From: Permianibacter fluminis
GTDB lineage: Bacteria > Pseudomonadota > Gammaproteobacteria > Enterobacterales > Permianibacteraceae
Assembly: GCF_013179735.1 (NCBI RefSeq)
Contig: NZ_JABMEG010000001.1
Span: forward strand, 3,100,001 to 3,164,000
Length of the DNA: 64,000 nucleotides
Reading direction: 5' to 3'
The notes under the pieces were generated by a model. It was given only the letters and a program-made list of their open reading frames with translations, was not told the DNA's origin and ran no database searches. Made by a program: the position numbers and the translations under genes. Shown in pieces: positions 4,281-23,954 of this stretch; position 1 is the stretch's first letter; every line of letters begins with the position of its first letter.

Positions 4281-4301
4281 GATACCCGCGCTCCACAAAA
4301 A

Positions 4302-4315
4302 AACTGACGTCAGTT
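4302..4315. promoter_or_regulatory. 14-bp perfect palindrome AACTGACGTCAGTT in the fleQ leader
   Basis: This palindrome lies between the predicted fleQ promoter and the GTG start, 22 bp before the start codon. Its TGACGTCA core is shared with 2838-2847. It could be an operator for fleQ control. No regulator can be named from the sequence. Confidence 0.45.
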
Positions 4316-4331
4316 CAAGAAGTTGGAATAA

Positions 4332-4360
4332 GGGATAGAAGACGGGTCGAGAATTGTCAA
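4332..4360 (-). promoter_or_regulatory. Probable sigma-70 promoter of fleQ
   Basis: On the minus strand a consensus TTGACA (-35) is followed after 17 bp by TATCCC (-10). It points at fleQ, with a leader of about 45 nt. A dyad (GAATT-GTCA-AATTC, 4351-4364) overlaps the -35 box and may be a repressor or activator site. Confidence 0.55.
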
Positions 4361-4534
4361 ATTCTTGGCAGCACTCTTTTCGCGATGTAATCGCAGCTTG
4401 TACACACGTTCCTGAGCGAAATGGATCTTCTGGATCGTTAGGCTTCGCGAGCCGGCACGACGGATCGCCATTGCGGGATCCATGCAGCGTGAACACAAGC
4501 CTGCGCAGCCACCGCGGCGCGAGCGGCTTTTTCC

Positions 4535-4571
4535 GCGCAAAAAGAAAGGGGCTTAAGTCACCCTAAGCCCC
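4535..4571 (-). terminator. Terminator-like hairpin reading leftwards
   Basis: An 8-bp stem GGGGCTTA / TAAGCCCC with an 8-nt loop is followed on the minus strand by TTTCTTTTTG, the shape of an intrinsic terminator. It would stop leftward transcripts before the fleQ promoter. No leftward gene is evident to its right, so it may terminate an unannotated RNA. Confidence 0.45.
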
Positions 4572-4600
4572 TTACCGTACGACTGAAGCCGCATTCCCTG

Positions 4601-4730
4601 AAGTGTTCTCAGCACCGCAAGGTACGTCTTCGTGAAGCCTTATCACTATCGGATGTTCTCAGCACCCGGCAGCAACGGCCTCGTTTTCTCCGGAGATGTC
4701 ACCGATGCGCAAATGGAGACCTATCATGGG
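4601..4730 (+). pseudogene. Orphan flagellin-type leader and start site
   Basis: Two TTCTCAG elements (4606-4612, 4656-4662) are followed by GGAGACCTATCATGGG at 4715-4730. These 16 nt are identical to the ribosome-binding site and start of flagellins 2 and 3. The frame opened by ATG 4726 runs to 5070 (114 aa) but is Arg/Ser/Ala-rich and not flagellin-like. I see no sigma-28 box before it. The simplest reading is the surviving 5' end of a decayed or displaced fifth flagellin gene; a small regulated peptide is the alternative. Confidence 0.45.
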
Positions 4731-5269
4731 AACTGACATTCGTGTCTCGGGACGCCCTTCACTCAGCAAGTGGCGTGCCAAGGTGCCTATCTCGGCGTCG
4801 CAAAGCAGGAAAAGCCGGCGATTCCTAACGCTTATTGCCCGCATTGCTGCAGCAATCAACGTGCAAACAGCGCGTTCGCTGGCGCAATTTCCGGACCGCC
4901 CTGCCATTTTTCCTGCGCGCCGCGTCGGCAAGGCGTTTGCCGCCGCCTTGCCACGGTTGCTGCGACCGCATGGCAGCTCAGACAAGAGCCAAAGCGGCAA
5001 GACCTTGCCGCCGCGGCAAGTGGTTGCATTTGCCGCCTCCACAGCCCGCCTGCCATACGCCTTGCCTTAATGTGGCTACCAACCTGCCTGGCCTGCGCGA
5101 ACCGCCACGGCAGCCGCCCGTAACGAAAGAATCCGCCATAACGCTGAATAAAATCCGCGCTTTGCATTAAAGAGGCTTGAGGCCGACTTCGCTCGCGCCA
5201 TTCCGCTCGTTTATGCCCGGCCTGTGCAACCGGCCAACCGCTCGCCTCCACTCAATTAAAAAAAAATCC

Positions 5270-5296
5270 TCAAGCTTTGTCAGGGCGGGTCGATAA
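5270..5296 (+). promoter_or_regulatory. Sigma-28 promoter of flagellin 1
   Basis: TCAAGCTT, an 11-nt spacer and GTCGATAA match the FliA (sigma-28) consensus with the correct spacing. The start of transcription would lie near 5303, giving a leader of about 265 nt before flagellin 1. Confidence 0.75.
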
Positions 5297-5340
5297 CCCG
5301 GACGAGCGAGTTGTGTCTCAGCATGAATCGCTCGACGTGG

Positions 5341-5568
5341 CAGGAATGTTCTCAGTGTTCCCCACGGCTAGGCAGGGGTGTTCTCAGCTCCACCAGCCGA
5401 CTAACACGAAAGGACGTTCCTGCTTTTTTGTGCCTGCGATTTGTCATGACTCATCCATGACTGATGGCGGCGGCAAAAGTCCCAGCACGAACTCCTTTCC
5501 TACACCGGCAACTTTGTAAGCGTCTTGAAGCCAGCAGGCCTGACGCGTCGAAGACTGAGGAGTAAGAA
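5341..5568 (+). promoter_or_regulatory. Long structured leader of flagellin 1 (two TTCTCAG hairpins)
   Basis: TTCTCAG occurs at 5349-5355, closed by GGAATG / TGTTCC, and at 5381-5387, near GGTG / CACC arms. The block ACTTTGTAAG (5511-5520) is followed by a GCGTC / GACGC stem and then GAGGAG before the ATG. The same order (TTCTCAG hairpins, ACTTTGTARG, hairpin, strong ribosome site) recurs at flagellins 2 and 3, and in short form at flagellin 4, suggesting post-transcriptional control of flagellin synthesis. Confidence 0.5.
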
Positions 5569-7101
5569 ATGGGAAGCGTGATCGCCACCAACATTGCGTC
5601 CATCAACGCCCAGCGTAACTTGTATGGGACGTCGAACGGACTCAACGTAACGTTCCAGCGACTGTCGTCCGGCTTTCGGATCAATACGGCGAAAGACGAC
5701 GCGGCTGGGCTGCAAATCTCCAACAAACTGAGCTCACAAATCGGCGGCTTGACCGTTGCCGCCCGTAACGCCAATGACGGCATTTCGCTGTCGCAAGTGG
5801 CAGAAGGCGCGGTTGGTGAAGCCACCAACCTGCTGCAACGGATGCGCGATCTGGCGGTGCAATCGGCCAACGGCAGTAATGGCCCGTCAGAACGTTCGGC
5901 GCTGCAACAAGAAGTTGCGCAGCTGAAATCCGAATTGAACCGGATTGCGGAAACCACGCGCTTCGGCAGCGCGGTGCTGCTGAACGGCTCGTTCGGTTCG
6001 CGCTCGTTCCAGGTCGGTGCCAATGCCTTCGAAACCATCAGCGTCACGATGGGCAACGTCCGCGCCGATGCCACCGGCTCCTACCGCGTCGACACCAGTG
6101 CCGGCGTCAATTTGCTTGATGCCAGCGCGACCTTGGCCGACAACGCCACCAACGCGGTCAATGCGGTCGCCGGCGATACGATTACCCTGTCCGGCTTCCT
6201 CGGCACCCAGGACATCACCTATGCCGCCGGCTCGACGGCGCGCGACATCGCCAATGCGGTCAATTTTGTCTCGAGTGAAACCGGGATCAACGCAGCGGCT
6301 CGCACCGTTGCGCAATTGTCGAGCTTGGCCCTGCCGGGCACGCTTTCATTTCAGCTGTATGGCTCCAATACCAGCACGACCAATCCGATCATCATCTCGG
6401 CAACGGTCACTGATGTCACCGATTTGTCGGCGATCTCGGATGCGGTCAACCGGGTCAATGCGGAAACTGGAGTTTCGGCCGAAATCGTCGTTGACCCGGC
6501 TACCGGTGACAAGAATGTGCATCTGATCAGTGAAACCGGTACCGATATCAAAATCGCCGATTTCAACAACAGTGCCGGTGCCAACGGCACCATCGCGATG
6601 ACACCGGAAGACTTCAACGGCTTGGCATTGGCCGGTTCGACGGCTGCCACGTTGACGCCTGGCGCCGCCACCGATTCGGCCGTGGTCGCCGGCATGGTGC
6701 GGTTTGACTCCAGCCGTTCGTATACGGTGACCTCGCTGGCAGCCGATATCTTTGCCGCCATCGGCACGCAAAGCGCCGGCTTGGAGCAAGTGGCCAATCT
6801 CAGCATCGCCACCGGCATCGGCGCGCAGGAGGCCATCATCGTGATCGACAAGGCAATTGAAGCCATCGATTCGGTGCGTGGCGATCTCGGTGCCGTGCAA
6901 AACCGTTTCATCAGCACCATCTCGAACCTGAACAGCGTCAACGAGAACGTTGCTGCCTCGCGTTCGCGCATCCGGGACACCGACTTCGCGCAGGAAACGG
7001 CGAACCTGTCGAAGTTCCAGGTGTTGCAACAAGCCGGCCTGTCCGTACTGGCGCAAGCCAATGCCCAGGGCCAATCCGTCCTTCAACTGTTGCAAGGATG
7101 A
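5569..7101 (+). CDS. fliC: Flagellin 1 (divergent paralogue)
   Basis: Flagellins polymerise into the filament after export by the flagellar type III system. This 510-aa copy has the conserved D0/D1 ends (start [19 protein letters not shown]-end [20 protein letters not shown]) around a variable centre (about 165-400). The D1 segment [15 protein letters not shown], a TLR5-type site, is intact. It is the most divergent of the four copies: [20 protein letters not shown] against [20 protein letters not shown] in the others. It has its own sigma-28 promoter and a GAGGAGTAAGAA ribosome site, and may form a distinct zone of the filament. Confidence 0.96.
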
Positions 7102-7121
7102 TAACCATGACCGCCAAGATG

Positions 7122-7152
7122 GTCGCCGGCAACCCTGGCTCTTGCCGGCGAC
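7122..7152 (+). terminator. Strong hairpin after flagellin 1
   Basis: GTCGCCGGCAA (7122-7132) pairs perfectly with TTGCCGGCGAC (7142-7152) across a 9-nt loop, 20 bp after the flagellin 1 stop. There is no T-tract, so it is either a non-canonical terminator or a 3'-end stabiliser of an abundant mRNA. Confidence 0.5.
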
Positions 7153-7640
7153 AACCAGGTATTACCCAAACAGGCATGACCCCGACTGTGTACAGTTCCA
7201 GAGCCGTCCAGTCTGCAGCAACCGAAGTAGCCGTACCCGCAGTGCCCCAAGCCCTTACCGACGACGACTCCGCAGGACAGGGCTGAGGGTTTTCTCAGGA
7301 CCGCTCAGCCACCTGAGCCCCGCTCCCCGAATGACGTTCTCGGGCCGCGGGGTTCAGGCCCGGCGCGGAGTCCCGGCAAATTGAGCAAACCGGATATGGC
7401 AAACGGGTTTCGGTAAACGGCTTTCGGTGAACGGCTTTTGATAAACAGAATACCGGCAACAGTCTTTGATGGATGTACCAGTTGAGTCCGGGAAGCCAAG
7501 CGGTTTGGCTAACTGACAAAAAACTGACAGAAAAAATTTTCGGCGCTAACAGTTTCGGTAAGTGACTGATTCGCTGGTCCCATACGGGTTCTGCCAAGAC
7601 AGCCAGGCAGATGCCCGCGTTCGTCATTGTGAAATCCATT
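7153..7640. other. Intergenic region between flagellins 1 and 2
   Basis: No credible gene. It contains one TTCTCAG element (7292-7298, arms GGTT / GACC), three imperfect 14-bp repeats (7401-7442), and a hairpin AGCCAA-gcgg-TTTGGCT near 7488-7504. A possible 59-aa frame starting at 7107 runs across the strong hairpin and looks non-coding. Confidence 0.6.
7401..7442 (+). repeat. Three tandem 14-bp repeats
   Basis: Units AAACGGGTTTCGGT, AAACGGCTTTCGGT and GAACGGCTTTTGAT follow one another directly. They lie about 200 bp upstream of the flagellin 2 sigma-28 promoter. Function unknown. Confidence 0.6.
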
Positions 7641-7667
7641 TAAAGTTTCCTCAGGCAAGCCCGATAA
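7641..7667 (+). promoter_or_regulatory. Sigma-28 promoter of flagellin 2
   Basis: TAAAGTTT, an 11-nt spacer and CCCGATAA give a near-consensus FliA promoter. Transcription would begin near 7674, leaving a leader of about 175 nt. Confidence 0.85.
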
Positions 7668-7680
7668 CCTGTTCGGACCG

Positions 7681-7849
7681 GCGCTGCGTTCTCAGCGCAA
7701 GCCGGACTAGACAGGTTGCGAATTTGCTCGAAGTTGCACCCAGAGCTACGTGACCGGCGTCGGTAGTGAGCTTTCTCAGAGCAGCTGCCAGCGTCTCGTA
7801 ACTTTGTAGGCCCCGCTTTCTCAGAGTGGGACATCGAAGGAGACCTATC
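7681..7849 (+). promoter_or_regulatory. Structured leader of flagellin 2 (three TTCTCAG hairpins)
   Basis: TTCTCAG sits at 7689-7695 (arms TGCG / CGCA), 7773-7779 (GCT / AGC) and 7818-7824 (CCCGCT / AGTGGG, 6 pairs). The block ACTTTGTAGG at 7801-7810 directly precedes the last hairpin, and AAGGAGACCTATC precedes the ATG. The last hairpin aligns with those at 12471-12491 and 14068-14086, where the arms differ but still pair. Confidence 0.55.
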
Positions 7850-9331
7850 ATGGGTAACGTCATTCAGACGAATGCGTCCTCGCTTAACGCCCAGCGTAAT
7901 CTGCTGGGTACCAGTAATGCCCTTGGCACCGTGTTCCAGCGCCTGTCGTCCGGTTTCCGGATCAACAGCGCCAAGGACGATGCCGCCGGCCTGCAGATCA
8001 GCAACCGTTTGAGCTCGCAAATCGGTGGCTTGTCGGTCGCGGTTCGTAACACCAACGACGGTATCTCGCTGGCGCAAACAGCTGAAGGTGCCTTGCAGGA
8101 AAGCACCAACATTCTGCTGCGTATGCGTGATTTGGCCGTGCAATCCGCCAACGGTTCGAACGGCGGTAGCGAACGTCAGGCACTGCAACAGGAAGTCAAC
8201 CAGCTCAAACAAGAGCTGACCCGTATTGCCAGCACCACCACGTTCGGCTCGCGCAAGATTCTGGACGGTTCGTTCGGTTCGGAAGCCTTCCAGGTCGGTG
8301 CCAACGCCTTCGAAACCATCAACGTGACCTTGGGTAACTACAAGGCCAACAACATGGGTTCGTACAGCTACGATCTGTGGAATGCGGCCGGCGCTGCGGC
8401 GGTGACCTCATTGGGCGGCGTGCTGGCGGCCAACTCGGTTACGGCCAACGGCGTCACCGGCAACCTGACCATTGCCGGTCTGGCAACCTCGGTTGTCGCC
8501 GTCGCGGGTTCGGCTTCGTCGGTTGCCACGTCAATCAATGCCGTCAGCGGTTCGACCGGCGTTTCTGCCGATGCCCGCACCGTGATCGGCCTGACCTTCG
8601 ACAACGACACCTTCTCGTTCAGCCTGGCTGCACAAGGCGGTACTGCGGTTTCGATTCAAGCCACCGTTGCCGGCGGCGACCTGACCAGCATGGCCGACGC
8701 GATCAACGCCGAAGCCGGCAAGACCGGTCTGACCGCAAAAGTGTCCGGTTCGGAAATCATTCTGACCAGCGAAGCAGGCGATGACATCACCATCGACAAC
8801 CTGAACAGCATCACCAACACCAGCCAAATCACGGTGCAGGGTTATGATTACACCGGTCAGAACGCCTTGGCGGCCTCGACCGACATCCTGACCGAAGCAG
8901 CTGATGATGCGATGCGCGCCATCGGTACCGTTGCCCTGAACAGCGCCAAGTCGTTCACCAGCACTGCCAGTGCGGCGACGATTGACGGCACCACGACCGT
9001 CAACAGCGGTGCGCTTGATGATGTCACCACCGTCGATATTTCGACTGCGATTGGCGCCCAACAAGCGCTGAAGATCCTGGATGACGCGACCTCCTTTGTT
9101 GACAGCTCACGCGCCGCACTCGGTGCCGTGCAAAACCGTCTGCAAAGCACCATCGCCAACCTGGGCAGCGCGATCGAGAACCTGTCGGCCTCGCGCTCAC
9201 GCATCCGTGACACTGACTTTGCTGCCGAAACAGCCAACCTGACCAAAAACCAGGTGCTGCAACAGGCGGGCCTAGCGATTCTGGCGCAAGCCAACGCCTC
9301 GCCGCAAAGCGTACTGTCGCTGCTGCAGTAA
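7850..9331 (+). CDS. fliC: Flagellin 2
   Basis: A 493-aa flagellin starting [18 protein letters not shown] and ending [19 protein letters not shown]. The first 170 or so residues are almost identical, also at DNA level, to flagellins 3 and 4; the centre (about 175-390) is Thr/Ser/Ala-rich and unique. Ser and Thr in that outer part are the usual sites of flagellin O-glycosylation, relevant to the cassette at 15.8-25.9 kb. ATG 7850 follows an ideal AAGGAG site; an in-frame extension to 7826 is not needed. It has its own sigma-28 promoter and is followed by flaG. Confidence 0.96.
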
Positions 9332-9384
9332 GTGGCGGATAAGGAACGGCAATGATGAACCGCCGCTCCCCACGGGCGCACACT

Positions 9385-9408
9385 GGCTACGGTCGAAAGA
9401 CCGTAGCC
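9385..9408 (+). terminator. 10-bp hairpin with GAAA tetraloop after flagellin 2
   Basis: GGCTACGGTC and GACCGTAGCC pair perfectly around GAAA, a very stable GNRA loop. It lies 53 bp after the flagellin 2 stop and before flaG. The following TTCGG is not a T-tract, so it may limit read-through into flaG or protect the flagellin mRNA 3' end. Confidence 0.55.
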
Positions 9409-9487
9409 TTCGGTGCGGTCGCAAACGTTGTAAGCCCTTTGCGACACGCTGCACTGACAAGTGCGGCAGCAGTTGCAGGAGACGACC

Positions 9488-9934
9488 ATGTCAACTGATC
9501 TCAGTCTGACTGGTGGACCCCGCGTGCCCGTCAACATCGCTACGCCTGCCAACGGCAACAATGTGGTGAGCTTGCGCCCTGCCGCCCGGCAAGAAGTTGC
9601 CGCGCCAGTCGCGCAATCCGAGATTCAGGCCAAACCGGCTGCCGAAGAACAAACGACGGCCCGACGTCTGGAACAGCAAAGCAAGGCCGAAGTGGAAGCG
9701 CTGCGGGCCAAGGTTGAAGAACTCAACCAGAATGCCCAGAGCGTCCGTCGCAGCCTGCGCTTTGATGTCGATGACGACACCGGAATCACGGTAATCACGG
9801 TTCGCGACCGGGAAACGGATGAAGTTATCCGCCAGATCCCGTCGGAAGAATTGCTGCAACTGGCCCGCTATTTTGCGGCCGCCAGCGAAGGTCAGGTCGA
9901 TAGTAAAGGGTTGTTGTTGCGCGCTGAGGTTTGA
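9488..9934 (+). CDS. flaG: FlaG family protein
   Basis: FlaG proteins are encoded beside polar flagellins and affect filament length; their biochemical role is not settled. The product is 148 aa from ATG 9488, with AGGAG 6 nt before it. It has a poorly conserved N-terminus, a charged helix (about 55-90) and the typical FlaG C-terminal domain (RFDVDDDTGITVITVRD ... IRQIPSEELLQLARYF). The order flagellin-flaG-fliD-fliS is that of Pseudomonas and Vibrio. Confidence 0.9.
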   Translation: MSTDLSLTGGPRVPVNIATPANGNNVVSLRPAARQEVAAPVAQSEIQAKPAAEEQTTARRLEQQSKAEVEALRAKVEELNQNAQSVRRSLRFDVDDDTGITVITVRDRETDEVIRQIPSEELLQLARYFAAASEGQVDSKGLLLRAEV

Positions 9935-9978
9935 CAGTCAAGCTCAGTCTCCGCCCTGCAGGGATGTAGGGTGTGCCG

Positions 9979-9999
9979 GCTGCTGTCTGGAACAGCAGC
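9979..9999 (+). terminator. Hairpin after flaG
   Basis: GCTGCTGT pairs with ACAGCAGC around a CTGGA loop, 45 bp after the flaG stop and upstream of the fliD sigma-54 box. There is no T-tract. It may end flaG transcripts; the GGA in the loop resembles a CsrA/RsmA site, but that is only a resemblance. Confidence 0.4.
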
Positions 10000-10028
10000 G
10001 GCCATTGCCAGCCATCCTGATGATGGCT

Positions 10029-10044
10029 TGGCATGGGGGTTGCT
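10029..10044 (+). promoter_or_regulatory. Sigma-54 promoter of fliD
   Basis: TGGCATGGGGGTTGCT has GG and GC exactly 10 nt apart and a good -12 TTGCT. It lies about 85 bp before the fliD ATG, so fliDST can be expressed in the RpoN tier, before the sigma-28 flagellins. Confidence 0.8.
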
Positions 10045-10125
10045 CTCGCTTTGCCTGAATGCGTGTAGTGATAGTGCGTTACGGCCGCATCCGGGCCGAC
10101 ACCGACACGATACAGGAGTGGTTCC

Positions 10126-11478
10126 ATGGGACTCATATCTGCTGCAGGTTCCGGCTCTGGCCTCGATGTCGATTCGATCATCAAGGCCTTGGTCAACGCC
10201 GAGCGCGCGCCAGTCGAGCAGCGACTGAACCGGCAAGAAGCCCAGACCACCACGACGCTGACCGGTATCGGTTCGCTGTCATCCATTCTTGGCACGCTGA
10301 AAACCGCGCTGCAAAAGCTCGACTCAGCCTCCGATTTCAAACTCCGCACCACCTCTCTGTCGCAGAGTGGTTACGTCACGGTCACTCCGGGTGAAACAGC
10401 CAGCAGCACCAGCTTTTCGGTGGAAGTCGTTTCCTTGGCGACCGGCAGCAAGCTCGAATCCGGGGTCATAGCCGGCGGTTCCAGCGCAACCTTTGGCGAT
10501 GGTTCGCTCGATTTTTCTGCTGGCGGCAATACCTTCTCGGTTGCAGTTTCCGCAACTGACACCCTGACCCAGATCCGCAACAAGATTAACAATGCGACGG
10601 GCAATTTTGGTGTCACTGCGACCATCACGACGACCGACGCTGGCACCAAACTGGTTTTCAACTCCAAGATTACCGGCACCGGCAAAGATCTGGTCGTCAC
10701 CAATACCAATGCCGCGCTGAACTCCATCTCGACCGGCATGAGCTCGACGCAGGCGGCCGCCAATGGCCAAATCAAGATCAACGGCAATGTCGTTACCGGC
10801 ACCAGCAACACCTACAGTACGGCGGTCGAAGGCATCACCATCACGGCGCTGAAAACCAACACCGCAGCGGAAACTACCGAAGTGACCATTGCCGAGGACA
10901 AATCGGCAGTGAAAAAAGCGGTGGAAGAATTCGTCAAGGCCTATAACAGCGCCTTTTCCGAGATCAGTAAACTGACCAGCAACGTCAAAGGCGCCGAAGG
11001 TCCATTGGCCGCCGACAGCTCAGCCCGCAGCATCACCCAGCGGCTGCGCAATCTGTTGACCGGTTCGGTCAGCAGTGTCGATAGCGAATTTGGTAGCTTG
11101 GCCGCTATCGGCGTGACGACATCCAGAACCGGCACGCTGGAATTGAACAGCAGCAAACTGGATACAGCGCTGAGTAGCGGCTTTGACAAGATTGTCTCGC
11201 TATTCAGTGCAACGGATGGCCTCGCCCAGCGCACCATCAGCTATATCGATTCGCAGACCGGATCGAACGGCGCGCTGCAAAGCCGCACCACCACACTGAA
11301 CCAGGATCTGCAACGAATTGCCGGCCAGCGCGACTCGCTGTCGCTGCGGCTGGAAAAAATCGAAACCCGTTTGCGCGCTCAGTATGGCGCGCTGGATGCG
11401 CTGGTTGCCCAGTTCAACGGAACGTCCACCTTTATCAGCCAGAACCTGGCAAGCATGTCTACCGGTTCCAAGAAATAG
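10126..11478 (+). CDS. fliD: Flagellar filament cap protein FliD
   Basis: FliD forms the cap at the filament tip that folds and inserts flagellin subunits. The protein is 450 aa, within the normal range. It begins MGLISAAGSGSGLDVDSIIK, which fits the FliD N-terminal domain, and ends in a long coiled-coil segment (about 375-445) typical of the D0/D1 legs. ATG 10126 is preceded by CAGGAG. A sigma-54 box lies upstream, and fliS follows after 52 bp. Confidence 0.95.
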   Translation: MGLISAAGSGSGLDVDSIIKALVNAERAPVEQRLNRQEAQTTTTLTGIGSLSSILGTLKTALQKLDSASDFKLRTTSLSQSGYVTVTPGETASSTSFSVEVVSLATGSKLESGVIAGGSSATFGDGSLDFSAGGNTFSVAVSATDTLTQIRNKINNATGNFGVTATITTTDAGTKLVFNSKITGTGKDLVVTNTNAALNSISTGMSSTQAAANGQIKINGNVVTGTSNTYSTAVEGITITALKTNTAAETTEVTIAEDKSAVKKAVEEFVKAYNSAFSEISKLTSNVKGAEGPLAADSSARSITQRLRNLLTGSVSSVDSEFGSLAAIGVTTSRTGTLELNSSKLDTALSSGFDKIVSLFSATDGLAQRTISYIDSQTGSNGALQSRTTTLNQDLQRIAGQRDSLSLRLEKIETRLRAQYGALDALVAQFNGTSTFISQNLASMSTGSKK

Positions 11479-11530
11479 TCAGGCTTTCAGGCACTCGCTA
11501 CGCCATTACCGTCGTTTGGAGATCGTTTTC

Positions 11531-11959
11531 ATGTCCATGCAATACGCCAAGCAGTACGCCAAAATCAGCGCCAGTTCGGAAACCGAATCCGCCGATCCCC
11601 ATCGACTGATTCAGATGCTGATCGACGGTGCGCTGGCCAAACTGGTCGTCGCCAAAGCAATGATCGAACGCCGCGACGTCGCCAAAAAAGGCGAAAACGT
11701 CAGCTGGGCCATTTCGATCATCGGCGGCCTGCAAGCCAGTCTGGATCTGCAAAAAGGCGGTGAAATCGCCCAAACACTGAATGCCCTGTACGAATACATG
11801 ACCATACGCCTGGCGCAGGCGAGCGCCAACAATGATGCCTCGGGGCTGGATGAAGTCATCCATCTGATGAAGACCATCAAGGAAGGTTGGGATGGCATTC
11901 GGCCACAGGCAGTCGACATGTTCAAAGACAATCAAGCCTCCGAGCGCAGCCCCGCATGA
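11531..11959 (+). CDS. fliS: Flagellin export chaperone FliS
   Basis: FliS binds the disordered C-terminus of flagellin in the cytosol, prevents premature polymerisation and hands it to the export gate. The product is 142 aa from ATG 11531 (GGAG 9 nt upstream). It starts MSMQYAKQYAKISASSETES and contains ADPHRLIQMLIDGALAKL, matching the FliS helical bundle. The stop overlaps the next start as ATGA, so translation is probably coupled to the fliT-like gene. Confidence 0.94.
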   Translation: MSMQYAKQYAKISASSETESADPHRLIQMLIDGALAKLVVAKAMIERRDVAKKGENVSWAISIIGGLQASLDLQKGGEIAQTLNALYEYMTIRLAQASANNDASGLDEVIHLMKTIKEGWDGIRPQAVDMFKDNQASERSPA

Positions 11960-12270
11960 GTCCGGCATTGGCGGAAATCGTCGCGCTGAGCGAAAAACTG
12001 CAGGCCTTGTCGGTCAGCAGCGACTGGACCGCGATGCTGACCGTGGCACGGCAGCGACAGCAATTGCTCGACCACTATTTTGCCAGCAAGCCGCTGCCAG
12101 ATCCTGATGAATTGGTGCAGGGAACGCTGGGCAAAATTCAGAAAGAAGATGGCGTTCTGAACCAACTGGCCCGCAACCACCGGCAGAAAATGCTCGAAGA
12201 AGTGATCGACCTGCGCCAGCGTTGGCAGATGTCTGATGCCTACCAGACGGTGCAGCAACTGCAAATCTAA
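11956..12270 (+). CDS. fliT: Probable FliT-like flagellar chaperone
   Basis: A 104-aa, all-helical protein that overlaps fliS by 4 nt (ATGA). FliT chaperones FliD in enterics, and small poorly conserved FliT-like proteins follow fliS in many polar flagellar clusters. The sequence is charged and Gln-rich (AEIVALSEKLQALSVSSDW; ARNHRQKMLEEVIDLRQRW) and gives no decisive motif. The call rests mostly on size, predicted helices and position. Confidence 0.7.
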   Translation: MSPALAEIVALSEKLQALSVSSDWTAMLTVARQRQQLLDHYFASKPLPDPDELVQGTLGKIQKEDGVLNQLARNHRQKMLEEVIDLRQRWQMSDAYQTVQQLQI

Positions 12271-12355
12271 TCCCAGCTCTCATTGACGCCATTTCGGCGT
12301 CGTGCATTTGTCTCTTCAAATGAAAGCACCGACGAAAGTCTGCTGTAAATCCCGC

Positions 12356-12382
12356 TAAAGATTTAACACTACGCGCCGATAA
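12356..12382 (+). promoter_or_regulatory. Sigma-28 promoter of flagellin 3
   Basis: TAAAGATT, an 11-nt spacer and GCCGATAA give a near-perfect FliA promoter. The start of transcription would be near 12389, with a leader of about 120 nt. Confidence 0.88.
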
Positions 12383-12390
12383 TCGATTAT

Positions 12391-12509
12391 CCGGTTCTGC
12401 ATTCTCAGTGCACCCCGGCAGTCGGCCCTGCTTTGCCCAAGGCAGCAAGCCAGCAAAGACACTTTGTAAGTTCCGCTTTCTCAGAGCGGGACATCGAAGG
12501 AGACCTATC
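12391..12509 (+). promoter_or_regulatory. Structured leader of flagellin 3 (two TTCTCAG hairpins)
   Basis: TTCTCAG is at 12402-12408 with TGCA / TGCA arms and at 12478-12484 with TTCCGCT / AGCGGGA arms (7 pairs including one wobble). ACTTTGTAAG (12461-12470) directly precedes the second hairpin, and GAAGGAGACCTATC precedes the ATG. Relative to flagellin 2, one G-U pair becomes G-C and one C-G pair becomes U-G, so pairing is kept. Confidence 0.55.
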
Positions 12510-14015
12510 ATGGGCAACGTCATTCAGACGAATGCGTCCTCGCTTAACGCCCAGCGTAATCTGCTGGGTACCAGTAATGCCCTTGGCACCGTGTTCCAGC
12601 GCCTGTCGTCCGGTTTCCGGATCAACAGCGCCAAGGACGATGCCGCCGGCCTGCAGATCAGCAACCGTTTGAGCTCGCAAATCGGCGGCTTGTCGGTCGC
12701 GGTTCGTAACACCAACGACGGTATCTCGCTGGCGCAAACCGCGGAAGGTGCCTTGCAGGAAAGCACCAACATTCTGCTGCGCATGCGTGATCTGGCCGTG
12801 CAATCCGCCAACGGTTCGAACGGCGGTAGCGAACGTCAGGCACTGCAACAGGAAGTCAACCAGCTCAAACAAGAGCTGACCCGTATCGCCAGCACCACCA
12901 CGTTCGGCTCGCGCAAGATTCTGGACGGCTCGTTCGGTTCGGAAGCCTTCCAGGTCGGTGCCAACGCCTTCGAAACCATCAACGTGTCGCTGGGCAATTA
13001 CAAAGCCGACAACATGGGTTCGTATCGTTTTGATTTGTTCAATACAGCAGGCAATAACCTTGGCGCCAGTTTTGGCGCGGCCGCTTCTGGCGCGAACGCG
13101 GCGGGTGCACCGAATAATGTAGCCGGCACGGTCACGATTGCCGGCGTCGGCACTTCAAGCGCCATTTCACTAGCAGGCTTATCGGCCGGTAGTGCGGCGG
13201 CCGCCATCAATGCCGAATCAGGCACCACCGGCGTGATCGCCGATGCACGTACTGTTGTTAACATGATATTTACAGGCGCCGACACCTACACGTTCACCTT
13301 GACCGGCGCACCGGGTTCATCCGTGTCCATTCAGGCCTCCATCACCGCTGGTACCTTCGACTTGACCAGTATGGCCGACAGCATCAACGCCGAGGCCGGC
13401 AAAACTGGCATCACGGCCGCCGTCAGCGGTAGCAACGTGAAACTCACCAGCGAAGCCGGCGACGATATCATTCTGGAGAACTTGACCACTGTCGGTGCCA
13501 GCGGAATCTCATTTAATGGATATGACTACGAAGGCGACAATGCATTGCCAGCCTCTTTTGCTGGGGCTACGGGCAACCTTGCCGGGTCAGATTCGATGCG
13601 TGCCATCGGTACTGTGGTATTGAACGGTGCCACGCCATACACCGTCGCCACCTCAGCAACGACCATCACCGGCACTGCGGGCTCTGCCACCAGCACGTTG
13701 CAAGCTGTGACCAACGTCGATATCTCGACGACGATTGGCGCCCAGCAGGCACTAAATACTCTGGACAATGCCCTGTCGTTTGTTGACAGTTCGCGCGCCG
13801 CGCTCGGTGCCGTGCAGAACCGTCTGCAAAGCACCATCGCCAATCTGGGCAGCGCGATCGAAAACCTGTCTGCTTCGCGCTCACGCATCCGTGACACCGA
13901 CTTTGCCGCCGAAACCGCAAACCTGACCAAGAACCAAGTGCTGCAGCAGGCGGGCCTTGCGATTTTGTCGCAAGCGAATGCCTCGCCACAAAGCGTATTG
14001 ACGTTATTGCGATAA
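12510..14015 (+). CDS. fliC: Flagellin 3
   Basis: A 501-aa flagellin from ATG 12510, starting [18 protein letters not shown] and ending [19 protein letters not shown]. Its N-terminal 165 or so residues are essentially those of flagellins 2 and 4; the centre differs (a [19 protein letters not shown] insertion, then [17 protein letters not shown]). The [10 protein letters not shown]1 segment is intact. It has a strong sigma-28 promoter and the leader hairpins, and lies downstream of fliDST. The open frame continues upstream of 12510 only because the leader lacks stops. Confidence 0.96.
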
Positions 14016-14050
14016 CAAAATGAATTTCGCCCCGGCCAGGGCGATCAGCA

Positions 14051-14107
14051 CCAACCGACTTTGTAGGCCCGCATTCTCAGGGTGGGGCAGCAAAGGAGAC
14101 CTATCAG
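14051..14107 (+). promoter_or_regulatory. Short leader of flagellin 4 (one TTCTCAG hairpin)
   Basis: ACTTTGTAGG (14058-14067) is followed by TTCTCAG (14074-14080) flanked by CCCGC / GGTGGG arms and then AAAGGAGACCTATCAG before the ATG. Only 92 bp separate flagellins 3 and 4 and no sigma-28 box is visible, so flagellin 4 is probably read from the flagellin 3 promoter. A CGCCC / GGGCG hairpin without a T-tract (14030-14045) lies between them. Confidence 0.5.
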
Positions 14108-15589
14108 ATGGGCAGTGTGATTCAAACCAACGCATCGTCGCTGAATGCCCAGCGTAACCTGCTGGGTACCAGTAATGCCCTTGGCACCGTGTTCCAGCGC
14201 CTGTCGTCCGGTTTCCGGATCAACAGCGCCAAGGACGATGCCGCCGGCCTGCAGATCAGCAACCGTTTGAGCTCGCAAATCGGCGGCTTGTCGGTCGCGG
14301 TCCGTAACACCAACGACGGCATTTCACTGGCGCAAACCGCGGAAGGCGCCTTGCAGGAAAGCACCAACATTCTGCTGCGCATGCGTGATTTGGCCGTGCA
14401 ATCCGCCAACGGTTCGAACGGCGGTAGCGAACGTCAGGCGCTGCAACAGGAAGTCAACCAGCTCAAACAAGAGCTGACCCGTATTGCCAGCACCACCACG
14501 TTCGGCTCGCGCAAGATTCTGGACGGCTCGTTCGGTTCGGAAGCCTTTCAGGTCGGTGCCAACGCCTTCGAAACTATCAATGTGTCGCTGGGCAATTACA
14601 AAGCCGATAACATGGGTTCGTATCGCTACAATCTGTTTGATGCGTCGGCCGCCGATACGACCGTGTTAGGCGGCATTGATGCCGACACTGTGTTTCCACC
14701 CAGCGGCGTCACGGGCAATTTGACGATAGGCGGCTTGCAGACAACCACCATCGCTGTCGCCGGTTCCGCCGCCAATGTGGCTACCGCGATCAATGCCGTA
14801 ACGTCGACCACAGGAGTATCTGCCGATGCCCGAACCGCTAGCGGTTTGGCATTTGCTGATGACACCTATGCTTTCGGCATCTCCTTTCCCGGCGGCTCAG
14901 GCATCCGCATTCAGGCCACGGTCGCTGGCGGCGATCTGACCCAGATGGCCGATGCCATCAATGCCGTGGCCAGCCAGACGACGTTTACCGCGCGGGTTAA
15001 TGGCAGCGAAATCATCGTGACCAGTGAAGAAGGTCATGACTTTGTTATCGATAACTTTACTACCATCGGCACCGGCGCCATGACCGGACGCGGTTATGAT
15101 TACAACGGCACTACGGTCATCTCCTCCGCTGACGAAACTGTGACTATGGCCGGCAACAATACCTATCGTGTTATCGGCACCATTCAGCTGAACAGCGCCA
15201 CATCATTTACCACCTCCCCCAGCGCCGCCACGATCGATGGCAACGCGGCCAATTCGGTCAATAGCGCCACCCTTGACGACGTAACAACTGTCGACATTGC
15301 CTCTGCCATTGGCGCCCAGAAAGCCTTGAAAGTGCTGGATGATGCCCTGTCTTTTGTCGACAGCTCGCGGGCCGCACTCGGTGCGGTGCAAAACCGGCTG
15401 CAAAGTACGATCGCCAACCTCGGTAGCGCGATCGAAAACCTGTCGGCTTCGCGTTCACGCATCCGTGACACCGACTTCGCCGCCGAAACCGCCAACTTGA
15501 CCAAGAACCAGGTGCTGCAGCAGGCGGGACTTTCAATACTGGCGCAAGCCAACGCCGGGCCACAAAGCGTATTGTCGCTACTGCGTTAG
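14108..15589 (+). CDS. fliC: Flagellin 4
   Basis: A 493-aa flagellin starting [18 protein letters not shown] and ending [19 protein letters not shown]. The N-terminal 170 residues match flagellins 2 and 3 closely, also at DNA level. Its centre is related to that of flagellin 2 (shared GVTGNLTI and [10 protein letters not shown] segments) but clearly different. The ribosome site is AAAGGAGACC with the start shifted by 2 nt compared with flagellins 2 and 3. It is the last flagellin before the glycosylation-type cassette. Confidence 0.96.
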
Positions 15590-23174: not shown

Positions 23175-23954
23175 GTGCTTGCCGAGCTGAACGCCCTCTC
23201 TCGCGACGGCTACGTCCTGGTACCGGCCGTTTTCCCGGCCGATACCGTGGCAGCGGTTCGCCTCGCCTTGGACGCTGCCTTGCTGCAATACGCCGACCTG
23301 CACCAACAGCTCGGCTACACCAATGCCGAACAAGGCGGCGCTCACCACGTGCTGGCGAAAGGCGGCGTATTCCTTGAGACCTTGTCGTTTCTCAGCCGGC
23401 TGGACTGGCTCACACACTATCTGCGCAGCAAACTTGTCATCAACTCCTATGGTGGTTTCGACAATCGCCGCGACCGCAAGCTTTATGTCCGCAACATCCA
23501 TCGCGACATCCGTTTTTTTTCCACGGAACGGCCGTTGATGCTGAATTTGTTGGTCATGATCGATGACTTCACCATTCACAATGGTGCCACGCACCTGCTG
23601 CCGGGCTCGCACCGACAGGAACAGCAGCCGGATGACGCGCTGTTTTACGCCCGCGCCGAACGTGCGGTCGGCCGCTCCGGCGACCTGCTGGTGTTTGATT
23701 CCAGGCTTTGGCACGCGGCCGGCCACAATGAGACGGATGGCTCAAGGCGCGCCCTGACCATTACCTTGACCAGTCCGTTCTTCAAACCGCAATTTGATTA
23801 TTGTCGCGCCCTTGGTGATAGCCAGTGCCAAGCCTGCAGCGACGAGGTAAAACAATTGCTGGGCTACTACGCCAGAATTCCGGCCACACTCAGCGAGTGG
23901 TATCAACCCGCCGACAAGCGCTTCTATCGTGGAGATCAAGATCATGTCACGTGA
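23175..23954 (+). CDS. Phytanoyl-CoA dioxygenase (PhyH) family Fe(II)/2-oxoglutarate oxygenase
   Basis: A 259-aa member of the PhyH family. The iron triad is visible: His109 and Asp111 in NIHRDIRFF and distal His180 in SRLWHAAG. Arg191/192 (SRRALTITL) is positioned to hold 2-oxoglutarate, and NGATHLLPGSH is the family hallmark. GTG 23175 is chosen because the frame upstream runs inside the methyltransferase gene; GAG lies about 9 nt before it. It overlaps the next gene by 11 nt. It could hydroxylate an acyl group or sugar of the flagellin glycan, an inference from context. Confidence 0.82.
   Translation: MLAELNALSRDGYVLVPAVFPADTVAAVRLALDAALLQYADLHQQLGYTNAEQGGAHHVLAKGGVFLETLSFLSRLDWLTHYLRSKLVINSYGGFDNRRDRKLYVRNIHRDIRFFSTERPLMLNLLVMIDDFTIHNGATHLLPGSHRQEQQPDDALFYARAERAVGRSGDLLVFDSRLWHAAGHNETDGSRRALTITLTSPFFKPQFDYCRALGDSQCQACSDEVKQLLGYYARIPATLSEWYQPADKRFYRGDQDHVT

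Follow-up and report, generated by a model that had tools for sequence, protein, structure and literature searches.

In polar flagellar cascades, the middle genes are transcribed from sigma-54-type promoters and the later flagellins from sigma-28-like ones. That flagellin is held back before hook completion is mostly explained by transcription (FlgM/sigma-28) together with a few proteins (FliW-CsrA, FlbT). Here, we looked at the flagellin cluster of Permianibacter fluminis in a stretch of 64,000 nucleotides (nt) of contig NZ_JABMEG010000001.1 (positions 3,100,001 to 3,164,000, called the window below), where a hairpin with the loop UUCUCAG recurs in the mRNA leaders of the flagellin genes fliC1 to fliC4. 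The sequences of this cluster and of its relatives lead us to propose, with a probability of about 0.8, that a dedicated small RNA (sRNA), acting in trans and encoded on the opposite strand 5' of fliC1, docks onto the loops of these hairpins.

Kissing antisense RNAs, ColE1 RNA I / RNA II among them, have hairpins with complementary loops of ~7 nt, several per molecule. The flagellin sRNA would resemble the ColE1 pair in its paired complementary loops, several per molecule, and would differ from it in that its loops are repeats of one sequence on differing stems, that it targets a set of mRNAs and that its gene does not lie opposite its targets. Another kissing RNA, OxyS, is not known to be dedicated to flagellin or to carry repeats of an identical loop. 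OxyS is described as binding the fhlA mRNA leader and coding region via two kissing complexes (PMC2946933), and kissing contacts to an mRNA leader are what it would share with the flagellin sRNA. In Campylobacter jejuni, CJnc230/FlmE is an RpoN-dependent sRNA of the flagellar cascade that is processed from the flgE mRNA and represses the Cj1387c and flgM mRNAs, by which flagellin is raised (PMC11187230). Its RpoN-dependent role in the cascade is shared with the RNA proposed here, whereas its flgE origin and its targets are different, and the main text makes no mention of kissing (PMC11187230). The E. coli sRNAs UhpU, MotR, FliX and FlgO are sigma-28-dependent and derived from untranslated regions (UTRs), and the first three base pair with fliC mRNA, mostly within the coding sequence (PMC10578931); pairing with fliC is the likeness, while sigma-28 dependence, UTR origin and sites in the coding sequence set them apart. 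CsrA-FliW also controls flagellin mRNA post-transcriptionally, although there the repressor is a protein acting on GGA motifs and not an antisense RNA (PMC4894983). In a search of titles and abstract openings, which covered a minority of subscription papers and no preprints, we found no description of an RNA of the kind proposed here; closest to it are, in role, CJnc230 (PMC11187230) together with the sigma-28 sRNAs of E. coli (PMC10578931) and, in mechanism, OxyS-fhlA (PMC2946933) and ColE1 RNA I/II.

The predicted sRNA gene reads, from 5' to 3' on the minus strand, a sigma-54-type promoter, a stretch antisense to a flagellin ribosome-binding site (RBS), CUGAGAA-loop hairpins and a terminator-like hairpin that is rich in G+C and accompanied by a T run:

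4541-4754, minus strand: predicted sRNA gene, ~214 nt, ends approximate (14-gene alignment and covariance-model match)
4766-4783, minus strand: sigma-54-type promoter (-24/-12), TTGGCAC-N5-TTGC, predicted +1 near 4754
4715-4730, minus strand: anti-RBS stretch, antisense of GGAGACCTATCATGGG, which is the same as the fliC2/fliC3 translation start
4648-4670, minus strand: sRNA hairpin A, loop CUGAGAA (4656-4662), 6/6 pairs read on minus versus 5/6 on plus
4598-4620, minus strand: sRNA hairpin B, loop CUGAGAA (4606-4612), 5/6 pairs read on minus versus 4/6 on plus
4546-4573, minus strand: terminator-like hairpin of the sRNA, 12-pair stem followed by TCTTTTTG

The loop CUGAGAA is the exact 7-nt complement of the leader loop UUCUCAG. 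The -24/-12 element expected of a sigma-54-dependent sRNA gene was recognised by its sequence: all 14 aligned sRNA genes keep TGGCA and 13/14 have GC at -12, the whole pattern being matched in 11 of the 14 and recognised in the alignment for L067, L089 and L119 (L numbers denote loci). In the window, there is a single occurrence of TTGGCACN5TTGC in its strict form and there are eight of a looser form. The layout of the terminator is alike in the relatives of the 14-gene alignment. As far as sequence can tell, the sRNA gene would thus be free-standing, having both a promoter and a terminator to itself. Neither the window nor the loci of six relatives gave an Rfam 15 match above the gathering score, the best sub-threshold match in 4300-14130 being BjrC68 (24.6 bits, 39 needed) over the sRNA terminator. 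A small peptide encoded in the sRNA was considered and rejected, the short frames from the ATG of CCATGAT, read by eye, varying between relatives. The genome carries an hfq gene; a second Hfq-like match (G000:C1:3235233-3235334) is weak, with 22.7 bits, below the cut-off.

The sRNA lies upstream of, and on the same strand as, a neighbouring gene for a sigma-54 activator, for which no NCBIfam model passed its cut-off and whose name fleQ (fleQ/flrA-like) rests on position. The minus-strand RNA might then be only the 5' leader of this gene, with its hairpins acting in cis, and a sigma-54 activator is again the next gene in L164, L170 and L172. Against this, the 12-pair terminator-like hairpin stands in between, the frames downstream of the sRNA in L169, L180, L185 and L186 are unlike such a regulator (by eye, without family search), in L109 and L111 the sRNA sits between two flagellin genes, and a stretch antisense to a flagellin RBS is needless for cis action. 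We consider this explanation very improbable.

To describe the hairpins of both putative partners, we collected 108 leader hairpins (101 distinct) with the loop TTCTCAG and 43 sRNA hairpins from 19 genomes with the loop CTGAGAA. Both sets were gathered by their loop; its invariance is therefore not a result, while the complementarity between the sets is. Each stem position of the 108 leader hairpins varies on both sides. In the leaders, 75% of the cells were paired as compared with 43% after shuffling, with a covariation score of 0.783 versus 0.231 for shuffled and 0.19-0.29 for slid alignments; in the sRNA hairpins, 89.9% versus 63.4% were paired, with a score of 0.747 versus 0.240. For these two measures, the observed values were reached in none of 500 shuffles and by no slid control. 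The covariation that had been looked for, with stems changing and the loop kept, is thus present across relatives, and an RNA element with a constant loop on varying stems is strongly supported. The initial annotation had pointed to compensatory changes in the last hairpin before flagellins 2, 3 and 4; they are there, although few by themselves, and it is the relatives, not these three window genes, that carry the covariation. On the sRNA strand, a conserved RNA structure is predicted as well, and the two putative partners present complementary loops on covarying hairpins, as expected of kissing-loop antisense RNAs.

A constant loop on a varying stem, in several copies per leader, is also the usual look of a protein site, and a protein could perhaps tolerate the weak stems of some leader copies. 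A translational repressor or stabiliser might accordingly bind the UUCUCAG hairpins, the minus-strand gene being a separate matter. The sRNA hairpins, however, show the loop's complement and match the minus strand, so they could not serve as decoys for the same protein, and the anti-RBS stretch would be left unexplained; we regard a protein site as unlikely. A decoy or site of the CsrB/CsrA type was rejected, the hairpin loops UUCUCAG and CUGAGAA containing no GGA. The initial annotation had suggested that the element is bound by a protein or pairs, through TCTC/GAGA, with the AAGGAGA site of the leader itself, and both ideas fit less well than the sRNA, whose loops offer the full 7-nt complement in addition to the anti-RBS stretch.

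Since only the transcribed strand can hold a stable G.U pair, the type of wobble in a stem tells which strand is the RNA. We compared the upstream array of hairpins (n=27) with leader copies (n=108) and other copies (n=127), all read on the plus strand. At the first five stem positions, the array showed 0 G.U and 17 A.C, the leaders 68 G.U and 16 A.C, and the other copies 90 G.U and 71 A.C (array versus leaders, Fisher p = 1.5e-10). Over seven positions, the array had 1 G.U and 21 A.C versus 98 and 29 in the leaders, and over ten positions 11 and 35 versus 132 and 48. Counted by locus, A.C exceeded G.U in 10/12 arrays, with 2 ties and no reversal, while G.U exceeded A.C in 17/21 leader loci, with 3 ties and one reversal (L111). 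Four copies were left out of the leader set and stand among the 127 controls: window 7292, L066 5711, L094 5429 and L111 6975, the last lying in an sRNA gene. The test followed a prior sighting of A.C mismatches in four upstream copies. As a check, 16 hairpins of later-found sRNA genes outside the model, read in the sRNA sense, gave 12 G.U and 1 A.C, these hairpins coming from a model built on minus-strand structure. By this bias, the hairpins of the upstream array look like minus-strand RNA and those of the leaders like plus-strand RNA.

Read on the plus strand, the array shows hairpins, an RBS and ATGGG, like a flagellin leader, and the sRNA gene looks like a duplicated flagellin leader that is at present transcribed backwards. 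It could then be a plus-strand decoy RNA, a leader copy soaking up whatever binds the leaders. Against this, the wobbles of the stems, like the signals for promoter and terminator, point to the minus strand, and neither strand of 4440-5600 showed a sigma-70-like promoter, which makes such a decoy barely credible.

The predicted targets, with their promoters and leader hairpins, are all on the plus strand (the position of each loop is given relative to the start codon):

5268-5298, plus strand: sigma-28-like promoter of fliC1 (by eye, weak consensus)
5341-5363, plus strand: UUCUCAG hairpin, fliC1 leader, loop at -220
5373-5395, plus strand: UUCUCAG hairpin, fliC1 leader, loop at -188
5569-7101, plus strand: flagellin 1
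7278-7312, plus strand: UUCUCAG hairpin of the fliC1-fliC2 gap, GGCTGAG-GGTT / GACC-G-CTCAGCC, 5' of the fliC2 promoter
7641-7668, plus strand: sigma-28-like promoter of fliC2
7681-7703, plus strand: UUCUCAG hairpin, fliC2 leader, loop at -161
7765-7787, plus strand: UUCUCAG hairpin, fliC2 leader, loop at -77, weak stem
7810-7832, plus strand: UUCUCAG hairpin, fliC2 leader, loop at -32
7839-7854, plus strand: fliC2 RBS and start, 16 nt perfectly complementary to the sRNA
7850-9331, plus strand: flagellin 2
12356-12382, plus strand: sigma-28-like promoter of fliC3
12394-12416, plus strand: UUCUCAG hairpin, fliC3 leader, loop at -108
12470-12492, plus strand: UUCUCAG hairpin, fliC3 leader, loop at -32
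12499-12514, plus strand: fliC3 RBS and start, 16 nt perfectly complementary to the sRNA
12510-14015, plus strand: flagellin 3
14066-14088, plus strand: UUCUCAG hairpin, fliC4 leader, loop at -34
14095-14106, plus strand: fliC4 RBS, 12 nt complementary to the sRNA, the remainder broken by two extra bases before the ATG
14108-15589, plus strand: flagellin 4

The 16-nt pattern GGAGACCTATCATGGG, allowing at most one mismatch, was found at three places in the window's genome, namely the sRNA gene, fliC2 and fliC3. In 10 genomes, it gave 21 matches, of which three (G044:C1:527269, G040:C308:2557 and G056:C3:321663, one mismatch each) are neither an sRNA gene nor a recognised flagellin. The two variable bases after GGAGA (CC, TT or TC) agree between sRNA gene and target in 14/18 genomes. 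In L111, L115 and L119, sRNA and target differ by one base, giving G.U; L091 has one extra base on each side, at a different place; and L106 has GTAGTG in both. The anti-RBS stretch is closer to the genome's own second flagellin (mean identity 21.4/28) than to those of other genomes (19.5/28; 18 genomes), a difference reached in none of 20,000 permutations. Conserved complementarity to a translation start is present for fliC2 and fliC3, extends over 12 nt in fliC4 and was not found for fliC1.

The RBS of fliC1 reads CTGAGGA in the window (5555-5561) and in L066 (4097-4103), and by our reading of the sequence can pair with the UUCUCAG loops of its own leader over 7 nt with one G.U. The leader loops might thus act in cis on their own ribosome site, for which this fliC1 site speaks. 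The RBSs of fliC2 to fliC4 offer only 4 nt (TCTC/GAGA), and the relatives inspected, except L066, have no CTGAG at the fliC1 site; pairing in cis appears clearly improbable.

The leader hairpins are found beyond P. fluminis. The same loop stands on different stems in L066, from a congener, and in L067, from a family member. With flagellin 3 as query, we obtained 77 loci in named genomes, and 18 of them (17 genomes, L092 and L095 being one genome) have one to several TTCTCAG hairpins 5' of flagellin starts, usually after a sigma-28-like promoter and with stems of up to 13 bp. These belong to Kangiellaceae, Pleionea, Aliikangiella and metagenome-assembled genomes named only Enterobacterales or Gammaproteobacteria. 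The remaining 59, mostly Shewanella and Pseudomonas, either lack TTCTCAG or have it scattered, each time closed by 0-2 immediate pairs. Among 17 loci (16 genomes) from other families of the order, flagellin starts were recognised in 15, none with TTCTCAG within 300 nt; in L072 and L073, the start motif recognised no flagellin start. The search of relatives with a covariance model of the copies, which had been suggested as a check, was of limited use: a 23-nt leader model (R2) gave 28 weak matches in four relatives, part of them in regions of flagellin or sRNA genes and part at other places, and none in the window's own genome, where nothing reached E <= 1 despite the known copies, making it too weak for a target search.

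In the window and 11 other loci, a second pair or triple of copies, spaced 45-58 nt, lies upstream of the fliC1 leader, and L109 and L111 have a one-hairpin form between two flagellins. A covariance model (R1) of the 3' 124 nt of the sRNA, built from 12 genes, matched 18/20 related genomes at one place each (two overlapping matches in G047). Of these genomes, 12 are in the model and 6 are not, the 6 being those without an sRNA gene in the flagellin locus that was fetched; the two misses are the one-hairpin forms. The window's gene matched at 7.5e-15, being itself in the model. Five of the six finds outside the model were reread in sequence (L164, L169, L170, L172 and L180), L173 being partly masked, and the anatomy of the 14 aligned genes recurs in the later finds. 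Order-wide, R1 matched 9/295 genomes, confined to the window's family and one other. In this other family, a neighbouring one (f8), the sRNA was found in 19/40 genomes and a flagellin-domain match in the identical 19.

On this sequence evidence, we infer expression of the sRNA, the kissing contact and the direction of its effect as follows. The sRNA would be transcribed by sigma-54 RNA polymerase alongside the middle flagellar genes. Its CUGAGAA loops would kiss, by a 7-bp loop-loop contact, the repeated UUCUCAG loops of the sigma-28-transcribed flagellin mRNAs, and its 5' part would block translation by pairing with the RBS and start codon of these mRNAs, over 16 nt for fliC2 and fliC3 and over 12 nt for fliC4. 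The order in the sRNA (anti-RBS, then hairpins) is antiparallel to that in the mRNA (hairpins, then RBS), which makes both contacts possible in one co-linear complex. Flagellin would be withheld until the hook-basal body is complete or flagellin mRNA exceeds the sRNA, the simplest outcome being a brake on flagellin translation that is relieved as flagellin mRNA rises. If true, an sRNA of the preceding transcriptional class would directly check the passage from the sigma-54 to the sigma-28 stage, and the use of one fixed loop on many unrelated stems, by regulator and target alike, would be an unusual natural case of multivalent loop-loop recognition. It is predicted that changing one loop would abolish control and that changing both would restore it.

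Several observations weigh against this proposal. The wobble and other counts are inflated by the shared ancestry of the related genomes and are not independent. Two of the five measures of leader covariation did not exceed the shuffles (double-change pairs, reached in 500/500, and pair types, in 119/500). The single terminator-like site found in 4440-5600, that of the sRNA, is in number alone not above chance (shuffle mean 1.8). The forms in L109 and L111 have one CUGAGAR hairpin, a different terminator and no R1 match. Of the 21 f8 genomes lacking both sRNA and flagellin, 20 belong to one genus, and the co-occurrence in this family may therefore reflect a single loss event. The permutation test of the anti-RBS stretch used the better-matching flagellin and is inflated by shared ancestry. 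For fliC1, the identity is only 8-19/28 in the 17 genomes compared, and the proposal leaves the fate of this gene unstated. In the genome of L094 (L180), the anti-RBS no longer includes its ATG part. Plain duplex energies with the sRNA (fliC2 -144.7, fliC1 -126.4, fliC3 -108.1, fliC4 -88.8) do not set the flagellins apart from 300 random stretches (mean -112.8, minimum -146.5), and this calculation, made without accessibility, was dropped as support. A fifth flagellin-like gene outside the cluster (G000:C1:3316977-3317378, L068) has no TTCTCAG on either strand in the surrounding 8 kb. Finally, the loop complementarity could be a relic of an origin by inversion of a leader, although the strand-specific wobbles argue for use of the sRNA loops and against a mere relic.

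A further element lies on the fliC1 side. A conserved box, in most cases CCCCTACCGTACGAC, directly follows the stop codon of fliC1 and is complementary to GTCGTACGGTAAGGGG of the sRNA. It was found at L086:5430-5444 and in L088, L089, L090, L091, L092, L093, L096, L099, L106, L110 and L115 (L090 being excluded from the alignment), with variants in L113 and L119. In L110, box and sRNA have changed together (GTGCGG with CCGCAC), and in a swap comparison only this locus was species-specific, pairing over 16 nt with its own sRNA versus 7-9 nt with others; in L106, L099, L119 and L066, the run of the box with its own sRNA was not longer than with others. The own runs are of 9 nt in the window, 10 in L066 and 8 in L067. 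In the consensus fold, part of the anti-RBS pairs with a conserved CGUACGG box, with no pair varying on both sides and without covariation support. That the complement of CGUACGG lies just after fliC1 in relatives hints at a release switch. Extended to the whole cluster, the sRNA would mask the RBSs of fliC2 to fliC4 and, by binding the leader loops with which the fliC1 site CUGAGGA of the window can pair, free that of fliC1, and the box CCCCUACCGUACGAC after fliC1, which in relatives pairs with the 3' part of the sRNA, would release or consume it, setting the composition of the filament. If so, the clustered flagellin mRNAs would all be bound at several points, with only the fliC2 to fliC4 RBSs masked, FliC1 would be permitted first and FliC2 delayed, and multivalent loop contacts would bring several flagellin mRNAs into one complex. 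We consider such a switch of flagellin order, in place of a simple brake, rather unlikely.

The starting point of this work was the density of TTCTCAG in the window. The eleven plus-strand positions initially listed between 4606 and 14080, and three further ones at 23389, 49281 and 63134, proved exact, and the minus strand of the window has none. The 14 copies on both strands compare with 5.69 expected from shuffles, a count reached in 1/100 of them. The chance level of ~4 copies per strand in 64 kb assumed at first was too high, since the genome total of 179 in 4.36 Mb gives ~1.3. From this total, 0.19 copies would be expected on the plus strand of 4606-14080 versus 11 observed (Poisson P(>=11) = 3e-16, for an interval picked post hoc with the copies already known). 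That most copies are closed by complementary arms was borne out: the nine copies past 5000 show 3-6/6 flanking pairs, with 3/6 at copy 7773 and a mismatch adjoining the loop at copy 14074. Elsewhere in the genome, 100 copies (the first listed of 165 outside the window, all on contig C1) mostly show 1-4/6, with 5 in 3/100 and 6 in 0/100 (Mann-Whitney p = 1e-5), and the three extra window copies have no immediate pairs. The description of the eleven copies as nearly all lying between a sigma-28 promoter and a flagellin ATG held in part. It does not apply to 4606 and 4656, which belong to the minus-strand sRNA gene, to 7292, which sits in the fliC1-fliC2 gap upstream of the fliC2 sigma-28-like promoter, or to fliC4, just before which no sigma-28 promoter was recognised.

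A gap copy 3' of fliC1 and 5' of the next promoter also exists in L066 (at 5711), the stem being longer in the window (7278-7312). Next to it, at 7312-7358 of the window, an inverted repeat (CCTGAGCCCCGC / GCGGGGTTCAGG) surrounds TTCTCGG, a one-base variant of the loop. In the translations of flagellins 2, 3 and 4 (7850-15589), the N- and C-terminal parts are near-identical and the middles diverged, as if homogenised by recombination.

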